Shown here piece after piece: positions 28,883 through 35,352 of a DNA stretch of 41,149 bases (position 1 is its first letter; every line of letters starts with the position of its first letter). This stretch comes from Burkholderiales bacterium (GTDB lineage Bacteria > Pseudomonadota > Gammaproteobacteria > Burkholderiales > Burkholderiaceae_E). The notes under the pieces were generated by a model. It saw only the letters and a list, made by a program, of their open reading frames with translations. It was not told where the DNA came from and searched no databases. The position numbers were made by a program, and so were the translations under genes. Where the stretch lies: assembly GCA_003576795.1 (NCBI GenBank), contig QEVN01000003.1, positions 1-41,149 of the forward strand, in the 5' to 3' direction.

Positions 28883-28948
28883 CGGGCGGGACGCCCCTCG
28901 ACGTCGCGCGCCGGCGCCCCGATCCGACGCGCCGGCACCGCCCGCTAC
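28879..28948. repeat. Inverted repeat at the tetR/rmuC convergent junction
   Basis: GTAGCGGGCGG (28879-28889) and CCGCCCGCTAC (28938-28948) are perfect 11-bp inverted copies that include the stop codons of the two convergent genes. The interior is also GC-rich and can fold. There is no T-tract, so it is at best a bidirectional transcription barrier. Confidence 0.55.
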
Positions 28949-30318
28949 GGCTCGGCCTGCATCTCGTCGTCGAGCAGCTGCACGGCCGCCGGCTCGGCCA
29001 GCGACTCCACGCCGCGCAGCTTGCGCTCGATCGCACGCGTGCGCGTCGCCGCCGTGCCCAGCGTCGTGCCGGCCCGGTCGATGTGCTCCTTCGCCTTCGC
29101 GAGCACGTCGCCGAACTTGCCGAACTCGGTCTTGACCGCGCCGAGCAGCTGCCACACCTCGCTCGAGCGCTTCTCCACCGCGAGCGTGCGAAAGCCCATC
29201 TGCAGGCTGGACAGGATCGCCGCGAGCGTGCTCGGTCCGGCCACCACCACGCGCCAGCTGCGCTGCAGCTCGTCGACGAGCCCGGGGCGGCGCACGATCT
29301 CCGCGTACAGCCCTTCGGTGGGCAGGAACAGCAGCGCGAAATCGGTGGTCGCCGGCGGCGCGACGTACTTGTTGCGGATCGTCTTCGCCTCCAGGCGCAG
29401 GCGCTGCTCGAGCTGCTTGCCCGCCGCCTCGGCGGCCGCCGGGTCGGCGCGCTCCTGCGCGAGCACGAGACGGTCGTAATCCTCGCGCGGAAACTTCGCG
29501 TCGATCGGCAGCCATACCGGCGAGTCGCCCGTGCTGCCGGGCAGGCGGATCGCGAACTCGACGCGCTCGTTCGAGCCCGGCACCGGCGCGACGTTGCAGC
29601 CGTACTGCTCGGGCACGAGCAGCTGCTCGAGCAGCGACGCGAGCTGCACCTCGCCCCAGGTGCCGCGCGTCTTCACGTTGGTCAGCACGCGCTTGAGGTC
29701 GCCGACGTCGGACGCCAGCGCCTGCATCTCGCCCAGCCCCTTGTGCACCTGCTCGAGCCGGTCGGACACCTGCTTGAACGACGCGCCCAGCCGCTGCTCG
29801 AGCGTCGCGTGCAGCTTCTCGTCGACCGTGCGGCGCATCTCCTCGAGCTTGACCGCGTTGTCGGCCTGCAGATCGCGCAGCCGGCGCTCGAGCGTCTCGC
29901 GCAACGACTCGAGCCGCAGCTCGGTGCCCTCGCGCAACGCGTTCAGCCGCTGCTCGTTGCTCTCGCGCAGCGCGCCCAGCCGCTGCTCGTTGGCCTCGGT
30001 GAGCTTGGCCAATTGCTGCGCGAAGGCATCGATCTGGTTGTTCTGCACGCTGGCGATCGTGCCCATCTGCTGCGTGAGGCTGCGCCCCAGGTCGGCGAGC
30101 GAGGCGCCCAGCTCGCGCCGGTTCTCGCGCGCCTGCACGCTCGTCTCCTCGCGCAGCTCGCGCTGCGTATCGAGCTGCATCCGCGTAGCCTGCGCCAACG
30201 CGTCGAGCACCGGCGCGGCGACGTCCGGAGGCCGGCGCAGCAGCAGCACGAGCAGCAGTACGGTGGAAAGCGCCGCGAGCGCGACGGCGGCGATCAGCAG
30301 GATGTCGGTCGAAACCAA
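28945..30318 (-). CDS. rmuC: DNA recombination protein RmuC
   Basis: A 457-residue RmuC-family protein, linked to limiting rearrangements at inverted repeats. A membrane anchor (about residues 4-25) is followed by a long coiled coil rich in E-Q-R-L-x-A-L-R-E repeats (about 35-210). The conserved nuclease-like domain follows, with T-R-G-T-W-G-E-V-Q-L (about 218-227), W-L-P-I-D-A-K-F-P-R-E-D-Y (about 270-282), T-D-F-A-L-L-F-L-P-T-E-G-L-Y-A-E (about 323-338) and a final F-G-K-F-G-D-V-L. The start is uncertain: TTG at 30318 with GAAGG upstream fits best; an in-frame GTG farther upstream exists. Confidence 0.92.
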   Translation of the reverse strand: MVSTDILLIAAVALAALSTVLLLVLLLRRPPDVAAPVLDALAQATRMQLDTQRELREETSVQARENRRELGASLADLGRSLTQQMGTIASVQNNQIDAFAQQLAKLTEANEQRLGALRESNEQRLNALREGTELRLESLRETLERRLRDLQADNAVKLEEMRRTVDEKLHATLEQRLGASFKQVSDRLEQVHKGLGEMQALASDVGDLKRVLTNVKTRGTWGEVQLASLLEQLLVPEQYGCNVAPVPGSNERVEFAIRLPGSTGDSPVWLPIDAKFPREDYDRLVLAQERADPAAAEAAGKQLEQRLRLEAKTIRNKYVAPPATTDFALLFLPTEGLYAEIVRRPGLVDELQRSWRVVVAGPSTLAAILSSLQMGFRTLAVEKRSSEVWQLLGAVKTEFGKFGDVLAKAKEHIDRAGTTLGTAATRTRAIERKLRGVESLAEPAAVQLLDDEMQAEP

Positions 30319-33404: not shown

Positions 33405-34112
33405 TCAGAAGCGGAACGGCGTGAAGTTGGTGTCGCGGTCGTACCAGTCCTCGTTCTCGGCGCGCTTGAGGAATCCGACGACCGCATAGGTGACGGGCGT
33501 GAACGCCGCCTCGACGAGCGTCTTGCCGACCCATTGCGAGAGCATCAGCGTCGGCAGCATCTCGTCGGGCAGCAGGCCCGCGCCCCAGAACGCCACAGGA
33601 TAGAACAACAGCGAGTCGACTCCCTCGCCGAGGATCGTCGAGCCGATCGTGCGCAGCCACAGGTACCGGCCTGCGGTCATCACCTTGAGTCGTGCCAGCG
33701 CGTAGGAGTTGACGAACTCGCCGCAGAAATAGGCGATCAGCGAAGCGATGACGACGCGCCAGGTGTTGCCGAAGGCCACTTCGAAGGCCTGCTGGTGCGG
33801 CCAGCCGGGCGCCGGCGGCATCCGCACGACCGCCCACGACATGAATGCGGCGAACAGCATCGCGACGAATCCGGTCCAGATGACGCGGCGCGCGCGCGCG
33901 TAGCCGTAGACCTCGGTGAGCACGTCGCCGAAGATGTACGACAGCGGAAAGAAGAGCACCGCCGCGCCGAAAGTGAGCGTGCCGAAGACCGGCACGTCGA
34001 CCTGCACGGCCTTGCCGGGGCCCAGCAGGTTCGAGCAGAGGAAGACGGTGACGAAGGCGGCCAGCAGCAGCTCGTAGTAGCGATAGCTGCGCGGGCGAGG
34101 TTTTTTATCCAT
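33405..34112 (-). CDS. Queuosine precursor transporter, YhhQ family
   Basis: A 235-residue membrane protein (COG1738), with six or so hydrophobic helices. It likely imports 7-cyano-7-deazaguanine or a related base used to make queuosine in tRNA. Family motifs seen are L-C-S-N-L-L-G (about 25-31), F-P-L-S-Y-I-F-G-D-V-L-T-E-V-Y-G-Y (about 55-71), A-Y-F-C-G-E-F-V-N-S-Y (about 129-139) and R-T-I-G-S-T-I-L-G-E-G-V-D-S (about 156-169). It is 22 bp upstream of the ABC permease gene. No preQ1-type riboswitch was convincing upstream. Confidence 0.93.
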   Translation of the reverse strand: MDKKPRPRSYRYYELLLAAFVTVFLCSNLLGPGKAVQVDVPVFGTLTFGAAVLFFPLSYIFGDVLTEVYGYARARRVIWTGFVAMLFAAFMSWAVVRMPPAPGWPHQQAFEVAFGNTWRVVIASLIAYFCGEFVNSYALARLKVMTAGRYLWLRTIGSTILGEGVDSLLFYPVAFWGAGLLPDEMLPTLMLSQWVGKTLVEAAFTPVTYAVVGFLKRAENEDWYDRDTNFTPFRF

Positions 34113-34194
34113 GGTAGGCCTCGAACATGGCTAGGGGCGCAGCATAGCGGAGGCTTTGCAGGTGCGTGGCTGCGCGCACGCTTCATCTGTGCGG

Positions 34195-34400
34195 GGCGCG
34201 AGAGCGAAGGGGGCGGGCGCCCGAGGCGCGCACGGCTTCGGCCCCGGCTTCGCCGGGGCTTCCCGGCCCTACCTCGCAAACTCGCACCCGCTGCCGAGGG
34301 GCGCTTCGCGCCCCCCGGCGACGGGTCCCGCGAGTTTGCTTTCGGTAGCGGCCGGCTCGCCGAGCGCGCCTCGGACGCCCGCCCCCTTCGCTCTCGCGCC
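34195..34400. repeat. 206-bp palindromic element with 42-bp arms
   Basis: The left arm 34195-34236 is the reverse complement of 34359-34400 at 40 of 42 positions (mismatches at 34220/34375 and 34232/34363). Inside are a hairpin GCCCCGGC-TTC-GCCGGGGC (34241-34259), a second pair GCAAACTCGC (34276-34285) with GCGAGTTTGC (34330-34339), and a central hairpin GGGGCGC-TTC-GCGCCCC (34298-34314). There is no open reading frame. It fills most of the 391-bp gap 34113-34503 between two divergent genes. It could be a mobile-type palindromic repeat or the DNA for a structured RNA. No clear target-site duplication was seen at its ends. Confidence 0.85.
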
Positions 34401-34503: not shown

Positions 34504-35352
34504 ATGAACTTCCGCTTCGAGATCGTCGATCGTGTGGCTCGGCTGACGTTGAATCGGCCGGAGGCGTTCAACTCGATGAGTCCCGCTTTCTGGCGCGAGC
34601 TGGACGGGATTCTCGAGCGGCTGCAGCGCGAGGCGCCGGCACGGGTGCTGGTGATCGACTCGACGGGCAGGCATTTCAGCTCGGGGATGGCGCTGGAGGT
34701 CTTCGGATCGTCGATCTCGCTGGACGACTCGCGCGCCGCGTCGCGCGCGAACATCGCGCTGCTGCTGGCGGACATGCAGCGCACCTTCGATCGGCTCGCG
34801 CAGTTGCGAATGCCGGTGATCGCCGCGATCCAGGGCGGCTGCATCGGCGGGGGCGTCGACCTCGTCTGCGCCTGCGATCTTCGCTACTGCACGAACGATG
34901 CGTTCTTCTGCGTGCAGGAGATCAACATCGGGCTCGCCGCCGATCTCGGCACGCTGCAGCGCCTGCCGAAGCTGATTCCCGAAGGCGTGGCACGCGAGCT
35001 GGCGTACACGGGGCGCCGGCTGCCGGCCGCGCGCGCGCTGGCGCTGGGCCTGGTCAACGACCTGTTCGAGACGCAGGAAGCGATGCTCGACGAAGTGCTG
35101 AGCGTCGCCCGCGAGATCGCGACGAAGCCGCCGGTGGCCGTGTGGGCGAGCAAGCAGGCGATCGACTACGCGCGCGACCATCCGGTGGCCGACGGGCTGC
35201 AGCAGATGGGCTGGCTGCAGTCGGGCCTGTGGGACAACGAAGCGGTGGCCGAAGCGATCCGCGCGCGCGCCGAGAAACGCGCCCCGCGCTTTTCCGATCT
35301 CGAGCCGCTGCGCCGCTTCGCCGAGGCCGACGAGGAAGGCGACGCGCAATGA
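34504..35352 (+). CDS. Crotonase, delta3,5-delta2,4-dienoyl-CoA isomerase-like
   Basis: A 282-residue crotonase-fold protein. The key residues fit dienoyl-CoA isomerase rather than hydratase: Asp119 (in G-G-G-V-D-L-V), Glu139 (in V-Q-E-I-N-I-G-L) and Asp147 (in G-L-A-A-D-L-G-T-L-Q). Their spacing of 20 and 8 residues equals that of Asp176, Glu196 and Asp204 in the rat enzyme. The oxyanion segment is G-R-H-F-S-S-G-M-A-L-E-V-F (about 56-68). It would isomerise a 3,5-dienoyl-CoA to the 2,4-form in unsaturated fatty acid breakdown. The stop overlaps the next gene (ATGA). An in-frame CGGAG site precedes the ATG. Confidence 0.85.
   Translation: MNFRFEIVDRVARLTLNRPEAFNSMSPAFWRELDGILERLQREAPARVLVIDSTGRHFSSGMALEVFGSSISLDDSRAASRANIALLLADMQRTFDRLAQLRMPVIAAIQGGCIGGGVDLVCACDLRYCTNDAFFCVQEINIGLAADLGTLQRLPKLIPEGVARELAYTGRRLPAARALALGLVNDLFETQEAMLDEVLSVAREIATKPPVAVWASKQAIDYARDHPVADGLQQMGWLQSGLWDNEAVAEAIRARAEKRAPRFSDLEPLRRFAEADEEGDAQ

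Follow-up and report, generated by a model that had tools for sequence, protein, structure and literature searches.

The window analysed here (the whole 41,149-nucleotide stretch of contig QEVN01000003.1 from a Burkholderiales bacterium, assembly GCA_003576795.1) contains a large palindrome between two divergently transcribed genes, a Vut_1 family transporter gene and an enoyl-CoA hydratase/isomerase gene (Table 1). Inverted-repeat measurement bore out the original prediction that its two 42-bp arms are complementary at 40 of 42 positions (95%), and the palindrome is the longest high-identity inverted repeat within 400 bp spacing in the 41 kb window; the remaining inverted repeats shown, with arms of at least 25 nt, have only 70-85% complementarity. 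The 206 nt element is predicted to fold end to end as a single hairpin with a side stem at a three-way junction, and this fold displays the nested and side stems that had been proposed from the letters of the sequence. Its energy is -188.3 kcal/mol, compared to -115.5 kcal/mol (sd 5.1) for shuffled sequences (z -14.3), and 0 of 200 shuffles were equally stable. The two arm mismatches, which had been taken as a sign of selection for folding, give a divided answer: the A-A mismatch 34232/34363 stands at a position where most copies of the element keep a purine-purine mismatch, as judged by eye from the alignment, whereas the mismatch 34220/34375 is private to the window copy. In the window copy, a scan for intrinsic terminators with loops of up to 8 nt gave 0 terminator-like sites between 34000 and 34600, and direct reading of the sequence shows no T run. 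The proposed connection with rmuC is incidental in view of the distance of this gene and of a scan of 20 genes upstream of other copies, none of which is RmuC.

Table 1. Features of the palindrome and its surroundings (window coordinates).
Feature	Position	Strand	Basis or remark
rmuC	28945-30318		PF02646; 3.9 kb from palindrome
Vut_1 family transporter gene	33405-34112	-	PF02592; gene start faces palindrome
5' arm	34195-34236	+	Site-private except position 34232; fold, arm-to-arm match, divergence from orthologs
Conserved type-A core	34225-34370	+	Covariance model R1 match, 112.8 bits
A of A-A mismatch	34232	+	Partner 34363; fold and alignment by eye
Side hairpin of three-way junction	34240-34260	+	Fold; conserved in type-A alignment
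Main inner arm	34263-34355	+	Fold, alignment, covariation
Inner-arm stems	34263-34273/34344-34355 and 34276-34290/34322-34339	+	Fold
Conserved asymmetric internal loop of inner arm	34274-34275/34340-34343	+	Fold, alignment
Apical stem-loop	34292-34320	+	Fold; sequence differs among species
Conserved TCC bulge of inner arm	34327-34329	+	Fold, alignment
3' arm	34359-34400	+	Fold, arm-to-arm match, divergence from orthologs
Enoyl-CoA hydratase/isomerase gene	34504-35352	+	PF00378; gene start faces palindrome

The palindrome belongs to a family of giant extragenic palindromes, dispersed and largely confined to one genus, in Zeimonas arvi and uncultured Burkholderiaceae, where the genus label Zeimonas for the whole group of 18 genomes is an assignment made in this analysis. 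BLAST against its own genome gave two more good places (C137, 85%; C167, 93%) plus two weak ones, and matches were obtained in 17 of 41 genomes (own and relatives), of which 16 belong to its own genus, although some cover a flanking gene only. The element is thus neither single-copy nor lacking conservation in relatives, and the expectation of a repeated extragenic palindromic element with an orderly conserved internal structure is supported by both BLAST and covariance models. Model R1 (type A) is present in 13 of the 18 genus genomes, as is model R2 (type B), which gave 26 hits in G003 and 25 in G008, type-A copies included. Family-wide, 16 of 74 genomes carry the element, namely 13 of 18 in the genus and 3 of 56 others; these three belong to one sister genus and have one copy each, one of which is a worn relic. 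The number of copies per genome is very uneven, from about 27 in G003 down to 1 in G006. For further comparison, 118 copies were compiled, consisting of 99 hits (two in L130 replaced by L160) and 21 added by hand.

A strict core pattern retrieved 32 stretches from a GTDB contig collection, every one of which belongs to a Burkholderiaceae record (the isolate Zeimonas arvi CC-CFT501 among them), and 0 matches from viral contigs. The window element matched no plasmid and no Rfam family at gathering score, and a relaxed E-value gave nothing convincing for this copy or for six other loci; the family is also undescribed in the open-licence PMC papers searched. The carriers do not group into one clade in a tree of relA from 17 genomes, and the element-free G002, G004, and G014 fall among them with weak support; from these sequences, the patchy distribution is read as probable old presence with later losses. 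G016 has a truncated match at a contig end (G016:C497:1-75, 35 bits), making its absence from this genome doubtful. Since elements often lie at contig ends (G016:C497:1-75, G000:C167:1-129), fragmented assemblies probably undercount them.

The core of the element is approximately 120-150 bp long (139-156 positions in the covariance models), occurs as types A and B, and combines conserved internal loops with strongly covarying stems. In the alignment of 42 type-A copies, 22 of the 39 pairs are changed on both sides, 242 both-side changed cells are found versus a shuffle mean of 76, and 96.4% of the cells are paired, compared to 79.7% in shuffles and 34-45% when the alignment is slid. The type-A loops and loop-closing bases are invariant, and this conservation holds despite the re-matching of the arms. 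Type B has the same base and side hairpin as type A and a different inner arm, and a third core form is seen in L129 and L135. One gene can be associated with different core types: according to R1 and R2 scores, the mog-like gene has type A in G001, G005, and G009, and type B in G003 and G008. In most copies read by eye, a purine-purine mismatch is retained a few bases outside the junction; because plain arm re-matching would erase such a mismatch, we infer selection or recognition at the core edge. In addition, the type-A copies of G003 and G008 show species-specific apical stems despite their orthologous positions, which suggests conversion among dispersed copies.

Each core is centred in a near-perfect palindrome, the arms of which are private to the site. 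Among the 64 of 76 hits measured against swapped flanks, 53 have an arm score above the best (17) of 300 such controls. In 39 comparisons of orthologs, partly reusing the same copies and not all independent, arm identity averages 0.95 inside a copy, 0.70 from ortholog to ortholog, and 0.57 for random copies, with 0.92 for the gene flanks and 0.88 for the core. At the window locus, where the element is common to three species (G000, G011, and G017), arm indels affect both arms together. The possibility that the arms are phage-derived spacers was rejected after a pooled query with 16 of the 97 collected arm segments gave no phage match.

Arm lengths were obtained for 107 of the 118 compiled copies, the rest being too close to a contig or locus end. 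In the clade of G001, G003, G007, and G008, 40 of 69 copies have arms that stop matching 24-28 nt from the model boundary, and the wider interval of 24-37 nt takes in 62 of 69; in the other genomes, the break falls at 24-28 nt in only 1 of 38 copies, with a spread up to 153. The break in the short-arm clade usually coincides with a conserved outer motif, and on the 3' side, between +20 and +34, TGGA[TG] or TCGA occurs in 39 of its 69 copies versus 1 of the 38 others. The fixed distance of the arm break counts against undirected template switching, which predicts no such ruler.

At the 79 sites flanked by a called gene on either side, with orthologous sites counted separately and 18 sites that miss a gene on one side set aside, 48 elements lie in convergent, 28 in tandem, and 3 in divergent regions. 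The corresponding numbers for 118 background gene pairs separated by 40 bp or more are 22, 62, and 34, with a convergent share inflated by the use of the window and 32 element-holding stretches as background. All three divergent sites represent one orthologous locus, that of the window. Many copies are single; the 18 multi-copy sites, 17 doublets and one triplet, all run + to -, that is, face to face, and comprise 12 convergent doublets as well as 5 doublets and the triplet in tandem regions. A 3'-UTR function deduced from sense orientation (78 of 94) was dismissed as an artefact because a convergent element is always sense to one neighbour. The gap between relA and the mog gene measures 629-869 bp and holds two elements in G001, G005, G008, and G009, and G003 likewise has two; the gap measures 27-95 bp without an element in G002, G004, G006, and G014, and these empty sites are too diverged for reading a target duplication. 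In the 830-bp gap between relA and the mog-like gene at G008:C3 (L165), the two elements have between them a short additional segment that may contain reading frames. In G006 and G013 (L051, L084), an apparent LexA box, TACTGTATGNACRTACAGTA, lies next to the element and upstream of a gene resembling dnaE2, with names assigned by eye.

Palindromes also extend into coding sequence. Between a phoH-like gene (PF02562) and a convergent threonine-dehydratase-like gene, named by eye from its sequence, the palindrome enters the coding sequence to a depth that varies by genome. In G009 (L074), 36 nt encoding SRLADYATDAL-stop, including a G009-specific Tyr, terminate both convergent genes; in G005 only 15 nt (TDAL-stop) are common to the same pair, and in G013 gene 2 terminates in LLAPSP. 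As judged from these sequences, the C-terminus of the convergent neighbour in G009 has become a copy of the other gene's end. Of 88 copies for which an upstream stop codon was called, 20 have an arm that runs past it, and in 8 of 107 measured copies the arm passes the stop of the downstream gene; several of these cases depend on gapped, weaker outer arms.

These properties define a new REP/BIME-like family that is unusual in size and behaviour. Like REPs and BIMEs, the Zeimonas elements are dispersed extragenic palindromes found singly or paired, mainly between convergent or unidirectional genes and rarely between divergent ones (3 of 79). PMC3733652 defines a REP as a 20-40 bp palindrome with a GTAG or CGTC tag at one end. 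The Zeimonas elements differ in having about 150-450 bp, a multi-loop core, and site-private arms, and in reaching at most a few tens of copies; moreover, the GTAG of the window copy sits inside the core rather than serving as an end tag. Their face-to-face arrangement in 17 of 17 doublets and one triplet resembles REPINs, for which PMC3116915 presents inverted doublets as a repeating arrangement, but each Zeimonas member forms a very large hairpin on its own, and no RAYT was found in the copy-rich genomes G003, G005, and G008. Strict membership in REP or MITE families, which had been among the suggestions, gains no support, as neither a tagged 20-40 bp hairpin nor a RAYT in the copy-rich genomes is found.

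Palindromic repeats of comparable type are present in enterobacteria, Neisseria, and Rickettsia. ERIC is a family of intergenic hairpins of 100-170 bp thought to be MITE-derived. NEMIS/Correia, YPAL, and RPE are characterized in the same terms in PMC2229807. All four are similar to the Zeimonas elements in size and as intergenic hairpins, with the Rfam searches as the sequence comparison. None of them is known to have site-private arms or an arm ruler. Arms that are apparently actively matched occur in the long perfect inverted repeats of Nematomorpha mitochondria, for which template switching is proposed; these repeats lie within genes and apparently have no common core, unlike the Zeimonas elements (PMC6649704).

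Taken together, we regard it as somewhat probable that the core is of mobile origin and that its hairpin makes replication switch template, thereby rebuilding the arms from one flank; the fast-changing yet matched arms and the gene end copied in G009 agree with this reading. The creation and maintenance of hairpins by template switching are documented in PMC8794818. The core would be spread by a trans-acting enzyme, as its distribution suggests, and could be retained through recognition of its internal loops. It would then stall replication so that the nascent strand folds back and one flank is copied onto the other, and repeated events of this kind may lengthen and re-match the arms. Selection would purge promoter copies, leaving mostly those at gene ends. 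The spreading step is weakened by the fact that no mobilising enzyme was found. PF01797, the RAYT-type Y1/tyrosine transposase, has hits in 3 of the 18 genus genomes, 2 of them over cut-off, and no convincing element lies beside the three hits (L144, 21.3 bits; L145, 17.2; L146, 14.7); a RAYT or transposase partner was rejected because this family is too rare among the 18 genomes. As for survival of the palindromes, the scarcity of curated-level SbcD nuclease, which exceeds the curated cut-off in 6 of 101 genomes, may be permissive at most, and loss of canonical SbcCD was rejected as a genus-specific cause because the scarcity is family-wide. A weak SbcD-like match, in no case over the curated cut-off, is present among carriers only in G001, G003, G007, and G008; it is also found in the element-free G010 and G004 and is missing from long-arm carriers. 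The short-arm clade carries a YhaO-like Mre11-family gene, an association that amounts to one contrast and no test because G001, G003, G007, and G008 form one clade with G016. At L143 (1486-2760), a YhaO-like metallophosphoesterase gene adjoins a WYL-type regulator (names by eye).

The strong covariation, the conserved internal loops, and the location at gene ends could also be explained by an RNA element under selection at the 3' ends of mRNAs, acting in stability, processing, or bidirectional termination, with pairing kept by compensatory selection. The stem length fixed in one clade and the retention of an element by the same gene across species despite a change of core type, as at relA and its convergent mog-like neighbour, would agree with such a role. 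However, templated copying of the arms yields the same covariation, and thus covariation alone is no proof of RNA selection. Among single copies in tandem regions, where orientation is interpretable, the bias is weak, with 14 sense and 8 antisense; the upstream genes at other copies, 20 of which were scanned against Pfam, are diverse housekeeping genes with no common function; the window copy lacks a T-run terminator; and four genomes have no element at relA. We consider an RNA role rather unlikely on this basis. Dispersal, the very uneven copy number, the face-to-face doublets, and the empty orthologous relA-mog sites would fit a MITE- or REPIN-like non-autonomous DNA transposon, with palindromic ends serving as transposase sites and with arms that are ordinary terminal repeats after drift, but the rarity of PF01797, absent from the copy-rich genomes, and arms that are private to each site instead of common to most copies make this origin improbable.

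A comparably low probability is given to a self-writing palindrome, in which a dedicated activity, either cellular or derived from the element, would recognise the core, fold the strand back, and copy a measured length of flank across. If so, the measured flank would be about 32 bp in one clade and 60-150 in others, and the arms would be made, renewed, and lengthened in the life cycle of the element, with host gene ends occasionally rewritten. Several copies do lie at contig ends of fragmented assemblies, as would be seen with an assembly artefact, but an artefact or chance hairpin is hardly conceivable given the stability of the predicted fold, the copies at orthologous positions, and the presence of the element in the Zeimonas arvi isolate as well as in genomes assembled into 3-4 contigs.

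A bacterial chromosome is expected to rid itself of long near-perfect palindromes; Zeimonas keeps dozens of them at homologous sites, and their arms remain complementary even as they change rapidly. The family offers a natural system in which to watch palindrome growth by template switching, to distinguish covariation that is templated from covariation that is selected in RNA-like structures, and to ask what nucleases determine palindrome length, and it illustrates one way for a hairpin to take over the C-terminus of an adjacent protein.

Near the window palindrome, a preQ1-type riboswitch candidate (RF00522; 20.2 bits, under the gathering score of 39) overlaps the start of the Vut_1 gene on the minus strand at 34090-34130, and its AAAAAACCTCG / CGAGG motif recurs partially, as read by eye, in L020 and L022.
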